Assembly: GCA_027859005.1 (NCBI GenBank) | Contig: JAQIBQ010000193.1 | Location: forward strand, 1 to 35,468 | DNA: 35,468 nt | Reading direction: 5' to 3' | From: Prolixibacteraceae bacterium | Lineage (GTDB): Bacteria > Bacteroidota > Bacteroidia > Bacteroidales > Prolixibacteraceae | In this document: positions 740-16,690 of the stretch, one piece after another | Numbering within the stretch: the stretch's first letter is position 1 | Layout of the letters: each line of letters starts with the position of its first letter | Notes under the pieces: generated by a model | Told to the model about the DNA's origin: nothing | The model's input: only the letters and a program-made list of their open reading frames with translations | Databases searched by the model: none | Translations under genes and position numbers: made by a program

Positions 740-2191
740 TTATTTTTTATAAAATGAAGGCACAATAAACACCAATACTGATAATATTTCAAGCCTTCCT
801 AGTATCATATTAAACGAAAGGTAATACTTGCCGAACTCAGATAATGAAGCAAAATTTTCGACAGGACCAACCAAGTTAAAACCTGGACCAATACCCCCCA
901 ATGTTGTTATAACACTACTAACGGCACTAACATGATCTAAACCTGTTAAAACCATAATTAAACTACCAACAGCAATTGTAGTATAGTAAAAAAAGATAAA
1001 GCCAATAATTCTTTTTGTAACATCAAGCGAAATAGACTGTTCATTGAAACGAGCAATTTGAATTGAATTTGGATTAATTATTTGCTTCAAATATTGACGC
1101 ATGTTTTTAAAAACAATTACATACCGCGCCACTTTAATTCCACCTCCAGTAGAACCAATACATGCTCCTGTTAACATTAATAATAGAATAATAAACTTTG
1201 CAAATGGTGTCCAATACAAATAATCGGCAGATACAAATCCTGTTGCTGTAATAATAGATGAAACCTGAAATAATGCTTGTCTGAAAGCAGGCTCCCATGT
1301 TATGCCAGTTTTTTGCACAATGAAGTATGCAATTACCAATGAACTAATTAAAATGAGGAATGCATACACTTTCAGCTCTTCGTCCTTAAAAAAACGTTTA
1401 AACCGGCCATGAACAAACATATAATGCAAAGTGAAATTCATTCCTGATAATATCATGAACAAGATAACAACATACTGAATTGAAGCAGAACTGTTTATTA
1501 AACTTGAATTATACGTTGAAAAGCCTCCGGTTGCAACAGTTGCAAAGGCATGGCAAACAGCATCAAATAAATTCATTCCACAAACAGACAATGCCACAAC
1601 CTCTAAAGTAGTTAGTACTACATAAATAAACCACATTCGTTTTGCTACGTCAATTGTACGAGCTTTTATCTTTTCAGTAGTAAAGAAAGCTCCTTCAGCA
1701 ATCATCATTTGTTGTCCGCCAATATTGAAATAAGGAATTAATGCAATTACTAAAACAATAACACCCATACCTCCTAGCCAATGTGTTTCAGCTCTCCAAA
1801 AAAGTAAGGATTTAGGCATCGCTTCTATATCGTTTAAAATTGATGAGCCAGTAGTAGTAAAACCTGAAACTGACTCAAATAATGCATCAGCAAAATTGGG
1901 GATGGTATTGGTAATTATATAGGGAATTGCTCCAAACAATGAAATAAATATCCAAGTTAAAACTACAGCCAAGAAATTATCCTTAATTGAGATATTAACT
2001 ACATCCCTCTTTGTAAAAACGAAAACAGTTCCACCAATGATTGAAATAAAAACAAATGCAAAAATAAGTTGAACAACTTCATGCTCCTTATATATTAATG
2101 CTACGGGGATACACGTTAATACAAATAGTGCTTCAATTAAAACACCAATTGAGATCACATGAAAAACATGACCCAAATGAATTCTATTCAT
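740..2191 (-). CDS. trkH: TrkH-family potassium uptake channel subunit
   Basis: Integral membrane K+ translocating subunit of the Trk/Ktr system; it works with a cytoplasmic nucleotide-binding ring (TrkA). At 483 residues it is the usual TrkH length. Four M-P-M repeats are visible through their selectivity-filter loops: SGFTTTGSS (about residue 110), ATVATGGFSTY (about 217), ITATGFVSADY (about 315) and TTLGGIGPGFN (about 430). The central Gly in each filter is kept. No trkA is adjacent, although trkA-trkH pairs are common in this phylum, so the partner must be encoded elsewhere. A small exported protein gene lies 37 bases upstream on the same strand and may share its transcript. The start at 2191 fits the family's N-terminal helix and has no better alternative. 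Confidence 0.93.
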   Translation of the reverse strand: MNRIHLGHVFHVISIGVLIEALFVLTCIPVALIYKEHEVVQLIFAFVFISIIGGTVFVFTKRDVVNISIKDNFLAVVLTWIFISLFGAIPYIITNTIPNFADALFESVSGFTTTGSSILNDIEAMPKSLLFWRAETHWLGGMGVIVLVIALIPYFNIGGQQMMIAEGAFFTTEKIKARTIDVAKRMWFIYVVLTTLEVVALSVCGMNLFDAVCHAFATVATGGFSTYNSSLINSSASIQYVVILFMILSGMNFTLHYMFVHGRFKRFFKDEELKVYAFLILISSLVIAYFIVQKTGITWEPAFRQALFQVSSIITATGFVSADYLYWTPFAKFIILLLMLTGACIGSTGGGIKVARYVIVFKNMRQYLKQIINPNSIQIARFNEQSISLDVTKRIIGFIFFYYTTIAVGSLIMVLTGLDHVSAVSSVITTLGGIGPGFNLVGPVENFASLSEFGKYYLSFNMILGRLEILSVLVFIVPSFYKK

Positions 2192-6938: not shown

Positions 6939-8210
6939 TTAATATGTCACGACAATTGGGTTGCTTAGTAATTCCGATTCGGAAGAAATATAAGCTTTAA
7001 AATTATCAATACTTTTCCATTTTTCATTTTCAAGCCCCCAAACAGCGAAGAAGAAATGGCTTGCTACCTTTTCTGCTTTAATCTTTTGAGAAACATAATA
7101 AGTCTCGGAAATTACATGACTGAATTTCTTTGCATCGACAGTTGTATAACCTTCTTTATAAAAATTAATATTAGTTGTTCTCCCTGTTGTGCCTACTTCG
7201 TTGGTTTTTAACAGAACTCCCATGCCTAATTCATCTTTATTTTCTGATTGAAGATCTAAAGTAGCAATTGAAGAATAATCACCATTAGCCACAAATTGTA
7301 CAGGTTCATTTTTCAATTTACTAGTAACAATACCTGTTACTAGTTGTTTTTCGCCTGTAAAACCCGAAACGGTTACATCCGACTTAAACCAATACTTCCC
7401 AGGAATAATTGTAATTCGTTCGGTTGCAGAAAGCATTTTGTCAGCAACATTCCACCCTGTATATTTCAGATCGAAAACAGAACGAACTGGTCCTTCGGTA
7501 ACCTTTTGATAAACATAGCTTTTTGTCGATCCTAAACGATACAATGAATCACCTTCTAGCATTGCTAATCCTCCTGAGCCAAGAGAACTACCACAGTGCA
7601 GAACATCCATTCCCCAATCTGATAAAACATGATAGTTTGGAATTTTTGCTGTGTGAACGTCATCAAGAACTAAACCAGGCTTAAGTTTTCCAAATAGGTC
7701 TTTGATATTACGACAATCAAAATAATTTCGAAAAGCCATTTTATCATTTTCCCAGCTAACACTCTCACCTTGAGCAATTATTTTAAATCCATCTTCAATT
7801 AATGGAGCTTCATAATAATCAACTTCAAGATATTTGTGATCTGCTTGTTTAATTCCAAGACGAACATTGGTTCTTTTATCAAATTTAGGATAATCAGAAA
7901 TTGCACAATCTTGAATCTCCAAATCAATTGATTCAGATGCCTTTAAATCTAGAATAAAAACAAACTCATCCCATTTACTATCTCCATCCATATCATCTAC
8001 TTGCGATGGAATATTTAGTCCATTTAAAAGAACAATTGGTGCGAAACCTTCGTTGAAAACACCAAATTTTGTTTCCAAGTCGCTTCTTTTCAAAACGATA
8101 GTTTCATCAGATCGATCGATACTTAGTGGAGTACTTACTGATAACGTTTGGCTCTTTGTACATGAAACGATAGAAAGAGCAGTCAATAAAATGATTATGA
8201 GTTTATTCAT
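6939..8210 (-). CDS. DUF4861-family lipoprotein of the uronate operon
   Basis: 423 residues; signal peptide with lipobox-like IVSC (Cys 17), so probably an outer- or inner-membrane lipoprotein facing the periplasm. The body is beta-rich: FGVFNEGFAPIVLLNGL near the start, a DMDGDSKWDEFVF acidic segment at about 72-84, GMDVLHCGSSLGSGGLA in the middle, and HFFFAVWGLEN near the end. I recognise this as the DUF4861 family, which is found in polysaccharide utilisation loci for uronic-acid-rich glycans; its biochemical activity is not settled as far as I know. It is the last gene of the operon lacI-kduI-kdgF-kduD-DUF4861, 64 bases after kduD. The context suggests a role in processing or binding of unsaturated-uronate oligosaccharides, but no catalytic residues can be assigned from sequence alone. 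Confidence 0.75.
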   Translation of the reverse strand: MNKLIIILLTALSIVSCTKSQTLSVSTPLSIDRSDETIVLKRSDLETKFGVFNEGFAPIVLLNGLNIPSQVDDMDGDSKWDEFVFILDLKASESIDLEIQDCAISDYPKFDKRTNVRLGIKQADHKYLEVDYYEAPLIEDGFKIIAQGESVSWENDKMAFRNYFDCRNIKDLFGKLKPGLVLDDVHTAKIPNYHVLSDWGMDVLHCGSSLGSGGLAMLEGDSLYRLGSTKSYVYQKVTEGPVRSVFDLKYTGWNVADKMLSATERITIIPGKYWFKSDVTVSGFTGEKQLVTGIVTSKLKNEPVQFVANGDYSSIATLDLQSENKDELGMGVLLKTNEVGTTGRTTNINFYKEGYTTVDAKKFSHVISETYYVSQKIKAEKVASHFFFAVWGLENEKWKSIDNFKAYISSESELLSNPIVVTY

Positions 8211-8274
8211 TATAATGTTTATTAATTGTTCAATTGATTCTTATCTACGAACTACAATAGCATTATCAATGCAA

Positions 8275-9072
8275 TCAAATTTCGTTTTCACCTTTTACAT
8301 ATCCGAAGTTGGCTAAAATTCCACCATCGACATACAGAATGTGACCGTTTACAAAGTCGCTTGCTTTTGAGGCAAGAAAAAGAGCAGCATTACCAACATC
8401 TTCGGGTTCTCCCCATCGTCCGGCTGGTGTACGAGTCATCACCAAATCGTTAAAGGGATGTCCGTTAAGACGGATATCGGCAGTTTGAGAAGTGGCAATG
8501 TATCCTGGGCCAATACCGTTAATTTGAACATTATATTTAGCCCACTCGCAGGTCATGTTCTCAGTTAGTAATTTCAATCCACCTTTAGCAGCAGCGTATG
8601 CCGAAACACTATTCCGACCATAAACGCTCATCATAGAACACATGTTAATAATTTTTCCGCTTCGACGTTCAATCATACCAGGAGCAATACGTTTAGCTAA
8701 AATTAAAGGGGCTACTAAATCGACATCAATTACTTGTTCAAATTCACTAATTTTCATGTCGAGTATTGGAATTCTTTTAATGATTCCAGCATTATTCACT
8801 AGGATATCAATTGGGCCAACTTCTTTTTCAATTTTAGTAACACCGGCATCAACAGCAGCTTCGTCGGTAACATCAAAAACCAGAGAGTATGCATCGATTC
8901 CAGCTTTGGCATATTCTTCTTTGCAAGAAACTAAGCGTTCTTTTACGCGGTCGTTCACACAAATTTTAGCACCAGCCTGTCCAAGTACTTTGCCAATTGC
9001 CATTCCTATACCGTGTGTTCCTCCGGTAATTAGTGCTACTTTTCCTTTTAAATCAAATAATTCGTTTATCAT
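8275..9072 (-). CDS. kduD: 2-dehydro-3-deoxy-D-gluconate 5-dehydrogenase (KduD)
   Basis: 265-residue classical short-chain dehydrogenase that interconverts 2,5-diketo-3-deoxygluconate and 2-keto-3-deoxygluconate (KDG) with NAD(H), the last step of this pathway's local part. The Rossmann motif TGGTHGIG (16-23), NNAG (93-96) and the catalytic set Ser147, Tyr159, Lys163 (YAAAK) are all present. The C-terminal NGHILYVDGG is the usual SDR ending. SDRs are hard to assign alone; the call as KduD comes from its length, its overall match to that subfamily and its position two genes after kduI. It starts 24 bases after the kdgF stop. Confidence 0.88.
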   Translation of the reverse strand: MINELFDLKGKVALITGGTHGIGMAIGKVLGQAGAKICVNDRVKERLVSCKEEYAKAGIDAYSLVFDVTDEAAVDAGVTKIEKEVGPIDILVNNAGIIKRIPILDMKISEFEQVIDVDLVAPLILAKRIAPGMIERRSGKIINMCSMMSVYGRNSVSAYAAAKGGLKLLTENMTCEWAKYNVQINGIGPGYIATSQTADIRLNGHPFNDLVMTRTPAGRWGEPEDVGNAALFLASKASDFVNGHILYVDGGILANFGYVKGENEI

Positions 9073-9096
9073 GATATTCTATTTTCTTATTGTTTT

Positions 9097-9444
9097 CTAC
9101 AAAAAATCTTCACGTAATGGTGTGAAACAGTCAATAATTTTCACATAATCAGTTAAGCGCTGAATTGTATGAGGCACATTAGCAGGAATGGCAAAGTGAT
9201 CGCCTTCTTTCAAATGCACTTTTTCATCAGTTGCAGCAAATAAATACACTTCACCAGCTGCTAAATACGAGACTTGTTCGTGTGGATGTGAATGAAAAGG
9301 ATCGGGGGCATTTGAAGGACCATCGGTGAATTCAACGTTCACCAACATTAAATGGTCCGTTTTGATTATACGACGCTCAATTCCTTCGGACACCTTAATA
9401 CACGGCATTTCGTCATATTTTGCAGTATAATTGCCTGTTTCCAT
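9097..9444 (-). CDS. kdgF: Cupin, probable KdgF (unsaturated uronate linearisation)
   Basis: 115-residue single-domain cupin. The first metal motif reads HSHPHEQVSYLAAGE, giving His51, His53 and Gln57 as likely ligands, and the second gives His92 (IPANVPHTI). KdgF-type cupins convert 4,5-unsaturated galacturonate or guluronate into the open-chain ketone 5-keto-4-deoxyuronate, the substrate of KduI. The assignment depends on context: the gene lies one base after kduI and 24 bases before kduD, so its product fits the missing first step. Many small cupins look alike, so a different role is possible. No signal peptide; cytoplasmic. Confidence 0.75.
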   Translation of the reverse strand: METGNYTAKYDEMPCIKVSEGIERRIIKTDHLMLVNVEFTDGPSNAPDPFHSHPHEQVSYLAAGEVYLFAATDEKVHLKEGDHFAIPANVPHTIQRLTDYVKIIDCFTPLREDFL

Positions 9445-9445
9445 T

Positions 9446-10288
9446 TTATTTCAATTGGGTTGGCTGTACAATATCCATATCGGTATAATCAAGATTTTCG
9501 CCGGCCATACCCCAAATAAAAATATAATTCGACGTACCTGCAGCGCTGTGAATAGACCAGCTTGGAGAAATTACCGCTTCTTCATTTTTCAACCAAATGT
9601 GACGTGTTTCTTCTGGTTGCCCCATAAAATGACAAACCGCCTGATCATCTGGAACTTCGAAATAGAAATATACTTCATTTCTTCGACTGTGCGTATGAGC
9701 TGGCATGGTATTCCAAACACTACCCGGTTTTAATTCTGTCATTCCCATTTGTAATTGACAGGTATCTACAACGGTATTAATCATCAGCTGATTAATGTCT
9801 CTTTTGTTAGATGCCTCAGCAGATCCCATGTGCAAAACATTAGCCTGAGCTAGTGTTACATGTTTTGCAGGATATTCTTTATGTGCTGGTGCCGAATTGA
9901 AATAAAATCTTGCAGGCTTTTTAGCATCATTTGAAACAAATAATACTTCTTTGCTACCACGGCCTACATACAAAGCATCTTTATAGTCTAGTCCATATTC
10001 AACTCCGTCGACCAATACTTTACCAGCACCGCCTACATTCATAATACCTACTTCACGACGTTCGCAAAAATATTCGGATTTTAAGGGATCGATTGTTTCT
10101 AATGGTAGTGATTTATTTACAGGCAATGCGCCTCCAACAATATAACGCTCGGCTAGCGAATAAACCATTCGAACATTGCCCGGATCAAAAATATTACTCA
10201 CTAAAAATTCACTGCGAATACGTTCAGTTCCATACTGCTTAAAATCTTCGGGATGGTATGAGTACCTTTCTTCGTAATAAGTTGCCAT
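9446..10288 (-). CDS. kduI: 5-keto-4-deoxyuronate isomerase (KduI)
   Basis: 280 residues, essentially the length of the E. coli enzyme. It isomerises 4-deoxy-L-threo-5-hexosulose uronate to 2,5-diketo-3-deoxygluconate in the cytoplasm. The zinc ligands are in place: His198 and His200 (MPAHTHSRRNE), Glu205 and His247 (SWSIHSAAGTSNYIFIWGM). Other conserved blocks are YIVGGALP (49-56), FCERREVGIMNVGG (74-87) and a YVGRG loop. It starts 29 bases after the LacI-family gene and ends one base before kdgF, so these are translationally close members of one operon. Confidence 0.95.
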   Translation of the reverse strand: MATYYEERYSYHPEDFKQYGTERIRSEFLVSNIFDPGNVRMVYSLAERYIVGGALPVNKSLPLETIDPLKSEYFCERREVGIMNVGGAGKVLVDGVEYGLDYKDALYVGRGSKEVLFVSNDAKKPARFYFNSAPAHKEYPAKHVTLAQANVLHMGSAEASNKRDINQLMINTVVDTCQLQMGMTELKPGSVWNTMPAHTHSRRNEVYFYFEVPDDQAVCHFMGQPEETRHIWLKNEEAVISPSWSIHSAAGTSNYIFIWGMAGENLDYTDMDIVQPTQLK

Positions 10289-10317
10289 AATGCTATTTTT
10301 TAAGTTTTTATTATATC

Positions 10318-11349
10318 CTAATCAATTGTATTTCGTTGAGATGACTTTCTGATAATTAATTGTGGTTTGAAACTCAATGAACTTGGAACTTCCTTGTTTT
10401 GCTTATTTTCAATTCTTTCAATCAATAATCTGGCAGCACTTCTCCCGATATCTTCACTATACTGCTCCAGAGTTGTTAGAGCCGGATCGGTTAGTTCAGT
10501 GAATGGTTCATTCGCAAAACCGACAATACCAATATCTTGCGGAATATTAATACCTGCATTTTTAAAAGTGATTAATGCACCTAAAGCAGAATAATCACTG
10601 GATGAAAAGATAGCATCAGGAAGTTTATTCTTTGTCAAAAGTGTTTGAGCTAACTCTTCTCCACTAAGCCTAGTTATAATATTGTCAAAAATCATATCAC
10701 TTGTAACGTCTAGATTTGCCTCATTCATTGCCTTCTTGTATCCATTGAGACGCTGTTCGTATACGTTTATATGCAAGGACCCTGAAAAATGAACAATGTT
10801 TTTATAACCTTGCTCAATTAAATGTTTTGTAGCTTCGTAAGCACCAGCAAAATTGTCGTTTATAACATGATCGATATTTAGGTTTTTTATAATTCGATCG
10901 AATAATACAACAGGCATGCCTCCATCAGTTGCAGCTTGAATATGAGCTCCATTTCGGGTTTCATTTGATATGGACATTATTACTCCTTCGGCTCTGTTGT
11001 TTATTAGTGTTTGCAAACCATCAATCTCTTTCGCTTGACTTTCATTTGTTTGACAAATCATTAAGTTATAACCAGCCGGATTTGTTATTGCTTCCATACC
11101 AGCAATTGCATGTGAAAAAAAATGGCGATTAATTCGAGGAATAATTACACCTATTAAGTTGCCTTTCCCTTTTCTTAAATTCGATGCCATATGATTGGGT
11201 TTATAACCCATTTCGGCTGCAGTTTTATTTACAAGTTCACGCGTTTTTTGGCTTATGCGCTTGTTGCCGCTTAATGCTCTTGAAACAGTAGATGCTGTTA
11301 TATTTAAACGAGCAGCGATAGTATGTATGGTTACTTTTTGATTTTTCAC
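10318..11349 (-). CDS. LacI-family transcriptional repressor of the uronate operon
   Basis: 343 residues. An N-terminal helix-turn-helix (about 5-25, with ITASTVSRALSGN) and hinge helix (about 50-60, HMASNLRKGKG) are followed by a periplasmic-binding-protein-like effector domain (GVIIPRINRHFF, VVLFDRII, GIVGFANEP). LacI regulators bind a palindromic operator and release on a sugar ligand; the likely inducer here is a uronate intermediate such as KDG or its precursors, by context only. It is the first gene of the operon, so it would control itself too. The start is a GTG that places VTIHTIAARL four residues in, as usual for the family. A TAACTTTG box and a palindromic operator candidate lie directly upstream. 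Confidence 0.9.
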   Translation of the reverse strand: MKNQKVTIHTIAARLNITASTVSRALSGNKRISQKTRELVNKTAAEMGYKPNHMASNLRKGKGNLIGVIIPRINRHFFSHAIAGMEAITNPAGYNLMICQTNESQAKEIDGLQTLINNRAEGVIMSISNETRNGAHIQAATDGGMPVVLFDRIIKNLNIDHVINDNFAGAYEATKHLIEQGYKNIVHFSGSLHINVYEQRLNGYKKAMNEANLDVTSDMIFDNIITRLSGEELAQTLLTKNKLPDAIFSSSDYSALGALITFKNAGINIPQDIGIVGFANEPFTELTDPALTTLEQYSEDIGRSAARLLIERIENKQNKEVPSSLSFKPQLIIRKSSQRNTID

Positions 11350-11399: not shown

Positions 11400-13019
11400 T
11401 TATTTATTCCGACGATAACTAGCTTTATTTCTTTTATCTTTTGACAAATCAAAAGGGCTTATTGTATCAATTAAGCCAACTTTTATCGACTGCCAAATGA
11501 AGCCAAAAATAGATTTGCTTTTGTCTCGGACATAATCAACCTTCCCTTGTTTAAACCTTTTGTCGGAAGATACATTACTCTTTCGTAAAGCTAAATTGCT
11601 AATTATTGAGATTAAAATATTTTTCTCTTTACTATTTTTATGAAGAACTTTGATTTTTAAATCGTCGTATTCAAAATTCACAGTACCTGTTGAATGATTG
11701 TTATCAGCCAAAATATTAAAATTGATACCATACAACTGCCCCACAGTTTCAATCCCCGCCATAGGTTGAAGTATGCGGTTTACACTCTCTGTACTTAAAT
11801 TATTTAACTGGCCATTGAATTGGAATCGATTCATAATATCGTTAACATCCATTCTTAACGAGGCCTCTATTATTGCTCCATTCATAAAATTAGATAGGAT
11901 ATCAAATTCAGTAAAAAGATTTGTATTTTTAATATTATGTAAATTATATCCCGACGCAAATAGATTATAAAAAGACATTCCTGCTATTGAATCTTGATTT
12001 TTAGGCCGTGCTTCAAAAAATACACTTGAATTTAATACTCGAAATGAGTCAAGTTTGAAAGACACAGGCAAATTTCTAAATAATTCAGAAAGTAATGGTT
12101 TGTTGTTTTGATTCATTTTATTGAAATGATCGTCGACCAATGCATGTATTTTAATTGAATCGATGTGAAGAGAAGAGGCTATAAATTTTGGACTGCCTGT
12201 TGAATCAAAACTCCAATCGAAATGGTTCAGGCTTACAGAATTGATATACATATTTACCCAATCATCTTTTTTACGATTAAGAACAATAAAATCGGACTTT
12301 GTGAGAGTGGGTATCAAATTAATTCTGTTGAATTGTATGTTATCATTCTGCAATTCAATATTGTAAATTTGAAGTGTAGCAATGGAATCAATTTTAACCT
12401 TAATTTCAAAGCAAGATGCGATAAGCGAACGAAACGTTAGTGGCAACGGGTTTTTAATTGTTAAGGTATCGACATTAAACGACTGTACGAATATATTTAG
12501 GTTTGATATTGAAACACTGGGTTCGAAACTCTTCTCATCATATAAATTCAAGCTTGCATTTCGAATTTCTAAATCATTTATTTGAATCCTAGTAAAAACA
12601 TCTTTCCATATTTCATTTAATTTTTCTTCTTTATCGTGCACTTCATTTGATTCTGAAAATATTTCGAATGTAGGTTCATTCACAATTAATTTATCAGTTC
12701 CCAATACATGCTCAAAAAACAGTTTTTTAATACCAGGCTTTTCAATTTTAAAGTAGTCGATTGTAATTGTATTGCCTTTAGTTGTATCAGCTACTTCGTT
12801 TATCTCAATTGCTCTTATGTATAAATTCTGCTTTAAAAAATTGAGAGAAGTACTTTCGAATACAATCTCGTATTTACGGTCGGGGTTTTGGTTTAGTACT
12901 TCTGGAAGATGATGATTCAACCAATTTTGAAGTATTTTCTCTGTACCAAAAAACACTAGCAAAAGAAGAAACAGTACAATTATTGGAATTCCTAATAAAT
13001 TTCTCTGTTTTAGATTCAT
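11400..13019 (-). CDS. AsmA-like membrane-anchored protein
   Basis: 539 residues with one N-terminal membrane helix (about 9-25, GIPIIVLFLLLLVFFG) and a long beta-rich periplasmic body with alternating polar/hydrophobic strands (for example YEIVFESTSLNFL, LNLYDEKSFEPSVSISNLNI). The C-terminal part, GTVNFEYDDLKIKVL followed by ISNLALRK and VDYVRDKSKSIFGFIWQSIK, is the ending I associate with AsmA/TamB-like proteins of Bacteroidota. Members of that superfamily are thought to form beta-groove bridges that move phospholipid across the envelope or affect outer-membrane assembly. The family call is from overall pattern and this C-terminal block, not a catalytic motif. It is a single gene, starting 51 bases before the operator of the uronate operon with no obvious terminator between, so some read-through is possible. 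Confidence 0.55.
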   Translation of the reverse strand: MNLKQRNLLGIPIIVLFLLLLVFFGTEKILQNWLNHHLPEVLNQNPDRKYEIVFESTSLNFLKQNLYIRAIEINEVADTTKGNTITIDYFKIEKPGIKKLFFEHVLGTDKLIVNEPTFEIFSESNEVHDKEEKLNEIWKDVFTRIQINDLEIRNASLNLYDEKSFEPSVSISNLNIFVQSFNVDTLTIKNPLPLTFRSLIASCFEIKVKIDSIATLQIYNIELQNDNIQFNRINLIPTLTKSDFIVLNRKKDDWVNMYINSVSLNHFDWSFDSTGSPKFIASSLHIDSIKIHALVDDHFNKMNQNNKPLLSELFRNLPVSFKLDSFRVLNSSVFFEARPKNQDSIAGMSFYNLFASGYNLHNIKNTNLFTEFDILSNFMNGAIIEASLRMDVNDIMNRFQFNGQLNNLSTESVNRILQPMAGIETVGQLYGINFNILADNNHSTGTVNFEYDDLKIKVLHKNSKEKNILISIISNLALRKSNVSSDKRFKQGKVDYVRDKSKSIFGFIWQSIKVGLIDTISPFDLSKDKRNKASYRRNK

Positions 13020-13236
13020 GCGTTTAGCCTAATTAGTTAGTTAAGATATCAAAAGGTATTCAAACCAACAATTTAAAACCCTGAAATTAAAACAATTCAC
13101 TTGAGTATCGTTTGGGATAATAATCTTTCAACGTAATATGAAAACAAGCCCCTAAAAAGGATTGATTGTCCCATATAGAGACTAACCTCATTCCATCCAA
13201 ATAGTATCACTCTGTGCTACTTGATGTTAGTGTCGA

Positions 13237-13252
13237 TGGCACAACAATTGCA
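13237..13252 (+). promoter_or_regulatory. Sigma-54 (RpoN) -24/-12 promoter
   Basis: TGGCACAACAATTGCA matches the sigma-54 consensus TGGCAC-N5-TTGCA at every defined base, with GG (13238-13239) and GC (13250-13251) separated by exactly 10 bases. Predicted transcription start is about 13263, which is 23 bases before the ATG at 13286 of a small Cys-rich protein. Transcription would need an AAA+ enhancer-binding activator; none is encoded in the window and I did not find an obvious upstream activator site. Confidence 0.7.
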
Positions 13253-13285
13253 GTTTATATATTACAACTCTTAAACCCTAAGGTT

Positions 13286-13501
13286 ATGGATACGATTAAA
13301 CAACCAAAATGTGCCAATAAATGTGAGAATTGTTACTACAATCAAATTAATAAATGTATCGCTCAAGCTGACGATGATTTTTTTATTGATATCAATATTG
13401 AAAAAAAAACCAGTAAAAAAATCATGAAAACACAGAAAAATTTACTGTCAAAAATTGAAATACACTCAGAAATATCAAGTGTAATAAATATTGCGTTCTA
13501 A
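13286..13501 (+). CDS. Small Cys-rich protein under a sigma-54 promoter
   Basis: 71 residues. The N-terminal part carries four Cys in KCANKCENCYYNQINKC (C-x3-C-x2-C-x7-C, about residues 9-24), a spacing that could hold zinc or an iron-sulfur cluster; then an acidic patch (ADDDFFIDI) and a lysine-rich, probably helical middle (EKKTSKKIMKTQK). No signal peptide. I do not recognise a family. The frame is open up to an earlier ATG at 13214, but that would put 24 more codons across the sigma-54 promoter and its start site, so 13286 is preferred. It is convergent with the PAS histidine kinase and shares a hairpin at its 3' end. Sigma-54 control suggests a conditional (nitrogen, redox or envelope-related) role, which is inference. 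Confidence 0.6.
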   Translation: MDTIKQPKCANKCENCYYNQINKCIAQADDDFFIDINIEKKTSKKIMKTQKNLLSKIEIHSEISSVINIAF

Positions 13502-13530
13502 AAAGAGGCTATTTGTAAAAAAATAGCCTC
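13500..13530 (-). terminator. Terminator of the PAS histidine kinase gene
   Basis: GAGGCTATTT (13505-13514) pairs perfectly with AAATAGCCTC (13521-13530); on the minus strand five T follow (complement of 13500-13504). The hairpin touches the stop codon of the convergent Cys-rich gene; on the plus strand there is no T run, so it works mainly for the kinase transcript. Confidence 0.8.
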
Positions 13531-13579: not shown

Positions 13580-16500
13580 TCAGGCCTTATTATAGGGGTG
13601 ATAAAAATAAAATTCAGCTCCTTTATCTACTTCTGATTTCACTCCAATTTCACCACCTAGAAGTTGAACGAAGGATTTAGCAATAGAAAGTCCCAAACCA
13701 GAACCTCCGTACAATTTATTAATTGAAGAGTCAGCCTGTCTGAAACGATCAAAAATAATTTCTTGAAATTCCTTTGATATACCAATCCCTGAATCTTTCA
13801 CCCAGAAATAGAGTTGCTTTCCCTCAGTTTTTACACCATATTCTACTAATCCTTTGCTTGTAAATTTCAAGGCATTTACAATTAAATTTGAAATCACTTG
13901 TGTAAGTTTAGTCTCATCGGTAATAATTTTAGCTTCTTCATCATTTAAAGTAGAGACATAGGTTATTTTCACATCTTTATTAGAATTAGAAATCTGAAAT
14001 TGTTCATATAGAGTAACCAATAAATCATTTACATTAAAAGGCGCCAAATTGGAAGAGATTTGTCCCGCATCGATTGTTGAAACGTTTATAATATCGGTGA
14101 TAATATGCAATAATTGATCGCTGCTATTTTGAATAATTCCATAAAAATAAGCTCTTTCATCGTTGCTTATTTCATTGTTTGAGAATAATTCGGTAAAACC
14201 AACAATAGCATTTAAAGGGGTACGAATCTCATGTGACATATTATTTAAAAAAGCAGACTTTAGCCGATCACTTTCTTCAGCCTTTTCTTTGGCATTCATT
14301 AAATCAGCTTCCAATTTTTTTCGTAGGCTAATGTCTTCACTTATTACAATAAAATTTATTATTTTATTGCTGCTGTTTTTAATGGGTGAAATTAATACAG
14401 ACTCCCAATAGCTCTCCATATTTTTCCTTCGGTTTAAATGCTCACCCCTCCATTCAATACCATCGTTTAGGCTCTTCCATATTTCATCATAAACCTCGGG
14501 ACTGGTATGCCCTGTTTTCAATATTCTTAACATTCGGCCTATCAGCTCAACCTCGTCATAACCCGATGTTTCCAGAAACTTTTTATTCACATACTCAATA
14601 ATACCTTCAGTATTTATTATCATTATTGATGCTGGACTATGATTCATTACTGCATTTAATTTCAACAACTGCTGTTCGGTTTGCTTGCGCTGAGTTATAT
14701 CTTCTTTAATGGCTATATAACTATGAATTGTACCTTGCTCGTCTCTAATAGGCGAAATAATTGCCGACTCCCAATAAAGCTCCCCATTTTTCTTTTTATT
14801 ATGGAACTCTCCTTTCCATTCATCTCCATGCGAAATGGTGTCCCATAGAACTTTGTATTCATCTGTAGATTTCTCTCCTGAGCTCAAAATTCTTGGGTTT
14901 TTACCCCTAACTTCCTCAAAAGCATAACCTGTTAGGGAAATAAATTTTGAGTTCACATATTCAATATCTCCATCGAGATTGGTAATAACTATCGATGCTG
15001 GACTTTGCTCTACACCTTTCGAAAGTTGAATTATTTTTTGTTCTGCTTGTATTTTTTGAGTGATATCCCGACTAATCCCAACCAGTCCAATCAATTCGTT
15101 TTGTTCATTTCGTAAGGGATACTTTGATGAGAACAACCAATGTTCCTGATTATCTTCAAAAATATATTCTTCCTTGTGATCTAAAACAGCCTTCCCGGTA
15201 TCAAAAACACGTTGATCTAATCCGCTGAATTTAAGAGCAAGTCTTTCTGGAAAAATTTCAAAATCGGTTTTACCAATAACCTGACTTTCAGAAACAAATC
15301 CTTGATACTGCAAATCAATCCGATTTGAAAACAATTTCCGCCCTTCTAAATCTTTAGCATAAATTGCATCGGGAAGATTATCGATAATTGTTCGAAGTAA
15401 AATTCGCTCTTCAGCCAATTTCTGTTCAATTTCTTTGCGATCTGTAATATTTAGAATTACACCTTGCCATAGGATAGTCCCATCGTTCTGCTTTTCGGGC
15501 ATTGCATTACACAAAAGCCACTGAATTCCTTTTTTTGGAAGAACTACTCGGTATTCTTCACGCAAAAGAATTAGTTCATTTGCCGATTGTTCTATCCCTT
15601 TAATCATACGATTGAAATCGGAAGGATGAAGTCGTTCAAATATTTTATTGGCATTATCTACCACATCCTTATGATACAATTCATAAATATAATGCAGCCC
15701 TTCGCTAGCCATTGGAACCGTATATGTTCCATTTTGCATTCGTTGAATCTGAAAAACAACGCCAGGCAGATGTGACATTATTTTTTTATACTTCTCATTG
15801 TTTTTAACCAATTCCTCTTCGGCAAAAATCCGATCAGATACATCTCGAATAAAAGACTGGTAGGTACCATCTGGCTTTTTACTGGAATTCATTTCAACGG
15901 TTAGAATGTCTCCAGATTTTGTAATAATTTTCCGTTCAGCAATAATCGATTTGCCTCTTTCTAACTCGTCAAACCTTAGAGGCTTAATTGCTAACTCATT
16001 CTCAGCAAAGAGATTCGACATATGCATCCCGAGGAGTTCTTCCATGCCATAACCAGTCAATTCAATCGCTTTCCGGTTTACATATATAAAGTTCCCTTTT
16101 GTATTACCTTGCACAAAAGCATCGGGAGCAAATTCAATAAAGTTGCGGTATTTCTCTTCACTACGTATAAGTTCCGCTTCAATTTGCTTTTGATGAGTAA
16201 TATCTTTGATTAAAACCTGACCTGCAGGTTCTCCTTGACAAACTAATTTAAAGGCTGAAACCTCGGCATTAAAAACGGAACCATCGAGACGAATCAACTT
16301 CTCTTCAATAGGAGGCAAATCAGCTCCTGCTGTAACTTGCATCATTCTCTTCTTCACAATTGAACGAGAATCTTCATGTACAAAGTCCAACATATTTAGG
16401 CCTAGAATATCCTCTAATGATTGAGCCCCGAGTGTAAGCAATCCATTCTTATTGGCATAAATAAGCTTTCCTTTTTGATGAATAGCGACTCCAATTGGGA

Positions 16501-16690
16501 GTTTGTCAATTAGTTTTTTATAATGTTCATCTAAATCGAAACATTTATTTAACTCGAGCTCTAACTCAATTTGTTTGATTCTTAAACCTCGAGCATAACT
16601 GTAAAATTCATCAGCACTTTTAGGCACATTAAAACTATCTGCTTCCTTCTCAAAAGTATCTAATGCTAATTGATGTATATCTTTTCCCAT
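13580..16690 (-). CDS. Multi-PAS sensor histidine kinase
   Basis: 1036 residues with no membrane segment, so a cytoplasmic sensor. Six PAS domains follow one another at about 57-170, 175-290, 295-420, 425-550, 555-675 and 680-800, most ending in the PAC-like signature (IKDITHQKQIEAEL, ISRDITQKIQAEQ, IKEDITQRKQTEQ, ISEDISLRKKLEA). PAS5 and PAS6 are close copies of each other (EQSPASIVITN / NHSPASIMIIN, GYAFEEVRG / GYDEVELIG). The HisKA dimerisation domain has SHEIRTPLN with the phosphorylated His at 820, followed by a HATPase domain with DSGIGI, FDRFRQAD and GGSGLGL. There is no receiver domain and no adjacent response regulator, so it is an orphan kinase. The signal cannot be told; PAS domains bind small ligands, haem or flavin, but no haem-axial or FMN Cys motif stands out. 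Confidence 0.92.
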   Translation of the reverse strand: MGKDIHQLALDTFEKEADSFNVPKSADEFYSYARGLRIKQIELELELNKCFDLDEHYKKLIDKLPIGVAIHQKGKLIYANKNGLLTLGAQSLEDILGLNMLDFVHEDSRSIVKKRMMQVTAGADLPPIEEKLIRLDGSVFNAEVSAFKLVCQGEPAGQVLIKDITHQKQIEAELIRSEEKYRNFIEFAPDAFVQGNTKGNFIYVNRKAIELTGYGMEELLGMHMSNLFAENELAIKPLRFDELERGKSIIAERKIITKSGDILTVEMNSSKKPDGTYQSFIRDVSDRIFAEEELVKNNEKYKKIMSHLPGVVFQIQRMQNGTYTVPMASEGLHYIYELYHKDVVDNANKIFERLHPSDFNRMIKGIEQSANELILLREEYRVVLPKKGIQWLLCNAMPEKQNDGTILWQGVILNITDRKEIEQKLAEERILLRTIIDNLPDAIYAKDLEGRKLFSNRIDLQYQGFVSESQVIGKTDFEIFPERLALKFSGLDQRVFDTGKAVLDHKEEYIFEDNQEHWLFSSKYPLRNEQNELIGLVGISRDITQKIQAEQKIIQLSKGVEQSPASIVITNLDGDIEYVNSKFISLTGYAFEEVRGKNPRILSSGEKSTDEYKVLWDTISHGDEWKGEFHNKKKNGELYWESAIISPIRDEQGTIHSYIAIKEDITQRKQTEQQLLKLNAVMNHSPASIMIINTEGIIEYVNKKFLETSGYDEVELIGRMLRILKTGHTSPEVYDEIWKSLNDGIEWRGEHLNRRKNMESYWESVLISPIKNSSNKIINFIVISEDISLRKKLEADLMNAKEKAEESDRLKSAFLNNMSHEIRTPLNAIVGFTELFSNNEISNDERAYFYGIIQNSSDQLLHIITDIINVSTIDAGQISSNLAPFNVNDLLVTLYEQFQISNSNKDVKITYVSTLNDEEAKIITDETKLTQVISNLIVNALKFTSKGLVEYGVKTEGKQLYFWVKDSGIGISKEFQEIIFDRFRQADSSINKLYGGSGLGLSIAKSFVQLLGGEIGVKSEVDKGAEFYFYHPYNKA

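Follow-up and report, generated by a model that had tools for sequence, protein, structure and literature searches.

Gene Content and Promoter of the Cys4-B Locus

The window analyzed here, a stretch of 35,468 nucleotides (contig JAQIBQ010000193.1 of assembly GCA_027859005.1), belongs to a 4.7 Mb Prolixibacteraceae MAG of 613 contigs, referred to below as G000. Its plus strand contains an open reading frame (13286..13501) for a 71-residue protein with four cysteines in the arrangement C9-x3-C13-x2-C16-x7-C24, as had been read in a preliminary description of this DNA. The protein is the second member in its own genome of a family termed Cys4, and the two copies are named Cys4-A (contig C48) and Cys4-B (the window). 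A histidine kinase gene with at least five PAS domains converges on Cys4-B from the minus strand (13580..16690); Pfam gives five PAS stretches, where six had been counted previously. Between the two genes lies a hairpin, GAGGCTATTT...AAATAGCCTC (13505..13530), read directly from the letters; the T-run follows it on the minus strand, which suggests a terminator for the kinase gene.

Upstream of Cys4-B, the plus strand carries a -24/-12 element of the type found in sigma-54-dependent promoters, TGGCAC-N5-TTGCA (TGGCACAACAATTGCA, 13237..13252), in which GG and GC stand 10 bases apart, as first reported, and which is separated from the ATG at 13286 by 33 bases. Judging from sigma-54 promoter geometry, transcription would start at 13263 on the plus strand, 12 nt past the C of the -12 GC. 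A longer mechanical ORF opens at GTG 13214, and because this codon precedes the predicted transcription start, ATG 13286, the start favored by the preliminary description, would be the correct one provided that the promoter is used. The genome encodes RpoN (Sigma54_AID at C564) and at least five sigma-54 activators, with five strong PF00158 matches at E 5e-66 or better.

A Putative Upstream GTCCC Enhancer Module

Taken by itself, the bare -24/-12 motif is weak evidence for a promoter, because the genome contains five copies of TGGCACN5TTGC and seven of the reversed control, so that the motif is not enriched; two of the other four matches fall within opposite-strand ORFs. Further upstream, the window contains an imperfect dyad, GTCCC-ATATA-GAGAC (13168..13182, +), located 69 nt upstream of TGGCAC and considered here the putative site of a response regulator encoded on contig C550. 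A second, distal half-site, GCCCCT (13148..13153, +), precedes the proximal copy by exactly 20 nt and is a weak match, being a degenerate copy of GTCCCA.

The same arrangement recurs at 13 sites in nine genomes, where GTCCCA sits 68-70 nt upstream of TGGCA in every case (13/13) and a second TCCC is found 20 nt further upstream at all 12 sites other than the window. In this family module the proximal copy is the dyad GTCCC-N5-GGGAC, which the window alters to GAGAC, and the promoter reads TGGCA(C/T)-N5-TTG, with TGGCA and TTG invariant across the 13 sites. When the upstream DNA of the window is dinucleotide-shuffled, GTCCCA appears at the family distance in 0.1% of cases, and GTCCCA together with CCC in the distal register, 20 nt further up, in 0.0025%. 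The pattern GTCCC-N60-68-TGGCA-N6-TTG identifies four sites in the 4.7 Mb genome, compared with one for the reversed control: two on C48, at the Cys4-A locus, one in the window, and one on contig C203. The DNA between enhancer and promoter has diverged, with only 7-19 of 52 positions identical between the window and the other sites, so that selection, and not recent copying, appears to have preserved enhancer and promoter.

An accidental -24/-12 match, with the small gene an ordinary one transcribed under a housekeeping sigma factor, would agree with the low count of the bare motif relative to its control, and with two of the five exact matches lying within ORFs. This reading is nevertheless very improbable given an enhancer at the family spacing, in a pair that has just three counterparts in the genome, two of them at the locus of the paralogue. 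The putative enhancer, overlooked in the preliminary description along with the paralogue and with the non-coding RNA that follows the corresponding promoters beside the paralogue, raises the window motif above chance, and with its genomic context the predicted promoter stands on firmer ground than was first claimed. The window locus has no orthologue in any other genome examined, and conservation of the promoter was accordingly judged at the other family sites; the check on relatives suggested with the initial proposal finds promoter and enhancer kept at all 13 sites and the four-cysteine spacing kept in all seven homologues.

The fourth site (L145, G000:C203) has its promoter near 1944, reading AGTCCCAGCAATCAATCACCCGTCCCTTTTTGGGACA then TGGCACTCACATTGCA, with an ATG 50 nt later; the gene (1418-1894, minus strand) encodes a protein of 158 aa whose start resembles a signal peptide and which has no Pfam family. 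A module of GTCCCA and TGGCA is also present in genera g6 and g12 (L036-L059, L078, L079, and L082), with a spacing of 69-73 in intergenic cases, where many secreted proteins, each about 190 aa long (the one scanned had no Pfam match), are encoded behind it, as are larger secreted or surface proteins. The regulon in these genera looks much larger.

The Cys4 Protein Family

At the protein level, a survey of the 140 genomes from this bacterial family recovered Cys4 relatives in four other genomes in addition to the paralogue on C48, and an alignment search added the Cys4 protein of G119. Extension to 393 genomes of the order gave one further match, in G358 (E 4.5e-5); that protein is longer, resembles a lipoprotein, and has none of the motif context, and the match was judged spurious. 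No Cys4 homologues were found on plasmids. The comparison genomes are incomplete MAGs, so that gene absences among them are soft. The family has no significant match in Pfam, NCBIfam, PHROGs, or PDB sequences. The four cysteines, their spacing, and the P, K, and A positions are invariant in all seven Cys4 proteins, Cys4-B included. Between the orthologues of G033 and G034, dN is 0.19 and dS is 1.77, and Cys4 is therefore taken to be a real protein under purifying selection, which bears out the earlier view of an unrecognized small protein. Cys4 is thus, by comparative criteria, a genuine and selected member of the putative regulon, from a family that neither Pfam nor NCBIfam contains.

Since structure prediction is of low confidence (pLDDT 45 for the window protein and 60 for an orthologue), it is the cysteine pattern that suggests a zinc or iron-sulphur site. 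A radical SAM enzyme was considered and rejected: the C-x3-C-x2-C spacing fits, but the protein has 71 aa, against a barrel of 200+ residues with SAM-binding motifs in those enzymes, and yields no Pfam radical SAM match.

Cys4-B is the most divergent member of the family, and it could be drifting: it aligns with the others at 22-31% identity and has a short insertion within the protein, a shorter tail, and altered forms of the conserved GED and RF motifs. These features would also fit a functionless duplicate that is decaying behind a still active promoter. Such decay is decidedly unlikely, as the ORF is intact, all four cysteines are retained together with P7, K12, and A26, and enhancer and promoter persist in spite of the diverged spacer DNA between them.

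A Predicted C-Poor RNA at the Home Locus

At the home locus of the module, found in nine genomes that all belong to the Prolixibacteraceae (G000, G032-G034, G118-G121, and G123), the promoter is followed by an unannotated, RNA-like segment of about 150-270 nt, present once or twice in tandem. Its composition is unusual, with 6-12% C and C-free stretches of up to 112 nt; UUAGGU and GGUUGA motifs are commoner in it than in shuffles, and its 3' end is a G+C-rich hairpin with a T-run, as in an intrinsic terminator. A Cys4 gene follows the RNA in six of the nine genomes, while in the other three (G118, G121, and G123) the RNA has no same-strand gene downstream. The window presents the opposite case, a Cys4 gene that has kept the module without the RNA.

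Searches against Rfam 15 gave no match to the RNA at gathering score, the sub-threshold matches being chance ones only. Because the core pattern TTAGGTTGAAGTT occurs at control level outside genera g1 and g5, the RNA is claimed for g1, g4, and g5 only. A conserved inner stem was not supported, as inner folds were not consistently better than shuffles, and pairing of the two RNAs of G000 with the leader of Cys4-B was likewise no better than shuffles. Decoy RNAs of the CrcZ type carry repeated A-rich CA motifs for Hfq/Crc, a type into which an RNA so poor in C does not fit.

Some details of individual loci may be added. In G000 (L060, C48), an IS1595-family transposase gene (1587-2492) lies between the tandem RNA units, both promoters being intact. 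In G034 and G033 (L063 and L064), two tandem RNA units lie between regulator and Cys4 with a recognizable enhancer and promoter on the first only, and the second unit may depend on read-through. In the window, the leader CTAACTAATTAGGCTAAACGC (13019-13080, minus strand) of a gene for a 539-aa protein (11400-13019) pairs with RNA 1 of G000 slightly more strongly than shuffled sequences do (z -2.6); as this is the best of 14 tests, the leader is a weak candidate for an RNA 1 target.

The RNA upstream of Cys4-A might not be a free small RNA at all, but an attenuating leader that controls Cys4-A through terminator read-through, and the window copy would then have escaped attenuation. The Cys4 ATG follows the terminator T-run by only about 16 nt in G000 and G120, and the T-run is weak in G120 and G119, as such a leader would predict. 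This explanation is possible though rather unlikely, for the RNA and its terminator are kept in the three genomes where no same-strand gene follows, an extra upstream unit without an ORF behind it occurs in G032 and G000, and G033 and G034 place two tandem units behind a single promoter.

The Associated Two-Component System

On its near side, the home locus is flanked by a divergent gene for a response regulator with a sigma-54 activator domain (NtrC-type), and on its far side by a convergent gene for a protein with a type IX secretion (T9SS) type B sorting domain. In G000 and G120 a kinase gene separates the RNA locus from the regulator; in G120 (L065, C361), genes for a coiled-coil protein, an OmpA-domain protein, a Ras-like GTPase, and a histidine kinase occupy this interval in one direction (7140-11289). 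The regulator gene of G000 is at C550:621-1973, and past it are encoded a PorP/SprF protein and then a very large protein. Type B cargo is bound by PorP-like proteins (PMC9143113). The histidine kinase gene of G000 is split across the ends of C48 and C550, and we therefore infer that these contigs join and that the regulator adjoins the C48 locus. The best NCBIfam match of the regulator is TIGR02915, at a score of 384.7 bits that falls below the curated cut-off of 502.6 and so places it outside the PrsR group.

At a threshold of at least 71% identity, the genomes that encode the regulator are precisely the nine that bear the enhancer-RNA locus, whereas the congeners G117 and G122 lack both regulator and promoter module at the thresholds used. 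This distribution bears on the convergent multi-PAS kinase (13580-16690), which had been put forward as a possible regulatory neighbor of the small gene. What speaks for it as the dedicated regulator of Cys4-B is adjacency only, and the proposal deserves hardly any credence: no receiver, sigma-54 activator, or DNA-binding domain was found in the kinase, and the enhancer type instead co-occurs across nine genomes with another two-component system, the C48/C550 kinase and its sigma-54 response regulator, the latter having orthologues at the RNA locus itself in the eight other genomes. Most likely, the activator of Cys4-B is encoded at C550. The preliminary description thus holds for the promoter, the small protein, its four conserved cysteines, and the start at 13286, and gives way on the kinase as regulator.

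A Model for the Regulon

In the regulatory reading favored here, which is very probably correct, the C550 regulator and sigma-54 would act together at GTCCC-enhancer promoters, with the window as one output of the regulon. The phosphorylated regulator would bind the two direct GTCCC copies, set two helical turns (20 nt) apart, and from a fixed position 68-70 nt upstream would activate sigma-54 RNA polymerase at TGGCA(C/T)-N5-TTG. At the home locus the module would drive the terminator-ended C-poor RNA, behind which Cys4-A is encoded, and in the window it would give a transcript that starts near 13263 and has Cys4-B as its sole gene. The four promoters of the genome are accordingly predicted to yield two small RNAs, Cys4-A through read-through, Cys4-B, and one secreted protein, in a regulon that appears tied to type B surface proteins of type IX secretion and their PorP/SprF partner.

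The function of Cys4 within this regulon is a guess: it may be a small cytosolic adaptor, binding zinc or an Fe-S cluster, that is made with the RNA once the surface system is switched on and acts together with either the RNA or the surface-protein program. A more elaborate proposal, that the sigma-54 regulator co-produces a C-poor RNA class and Cys4 so that both jointly tune the translation of type IX-secreted adhesins, with the window copy as an RNA-free, trans-located dose of protein, seems unlikely. An example of such joint action would be binding of Cys4 to the repeated UUAGG/GGUUGA motifs of the RNA.

For the Bacteroidota, knowledge of sigma-54 regulation and of small RNAs is sparse. Here, a short and precise module, comprising a tandem GTCCC enhancer, a fixed spacing, and a -24/-12 element, connects a two-component system with surface proteins exported by type IX secretion, and with a small RNA and a four-cysteine protein that had both gone undescribed. 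The module can be found by a simple pattern, and the regulon should therefore be predictable in any relative and testable in culturable members of the family. On the comparative evidence, the Cys4-B gene belongs to a small, testable circuit of surface control in a poorly studied bacterial group.

Comparison with Known Systems

The Qrr RNAs are terminator-ended small RNAs whose transcription is driven by sigma-54 with an activator. GlmY is produced by the same combination (PMC3162934). The RNA described here shows no sequence similarity to either by Rfam, and both phylum and gene neighbors differ. Francke et al. have proposed that sigma-54 is linked to the cell exterior (PMC3162934), and no report of the GTCCC enhancer, the C-poor RNA, or the Cys4 family was found in the open-licence literature. 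In the PrsK-PrsR/RpoN system for PEP-CTERM surface proteins (TIGR02915; PMC9850573), the sorted surface proteins are likewise under sigma-54 control by way of an enhancer lying upstream, though in another phylum; the associated cargo here carries T9SS signals instead, and the C550 regulator scores below the TIGR02915 cut-off.

In Flavobacterium psychrophilum, a member of the same phylum, mapped -24/-12 starts (SM4 promoters) control, within one co-expression cluster, both Rfp36, which is a putative regulatory RNA, and the sprB-sprF operon for a gliding adhesin, and the passages of that report concerned with this regulon, unlike the present case, describe no enhancer and mention no Cys4 protein (PMC9723704). 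Because sigma-54 controls both an adhesin operon and a regulatory RNA in Flavobacterium, the logic suggested here has precedent. CbrAB-CrcZ of the Pseudomonadaceae resembles the home locus in placing a kinase and a sigma-54 response regulator beside the small-RNA gene that the regulator activates via a sigma-54 promoter, and the two or three RNA copies of some strains recall the tandem units found here (PMC8871633). CrcZ acts as a decoy for the Hfq/Crc complex, while the present RNA is C-poor, has UUAGG and GGUUGA motifs and no Rfam match, and lies in another phylum beside type IX secretion genes. CbrAB-CrcZ is the closest precedent in logic (PMC8871633), and the F. psychrophilum regulon is the closest in phylum (PMC9723704).
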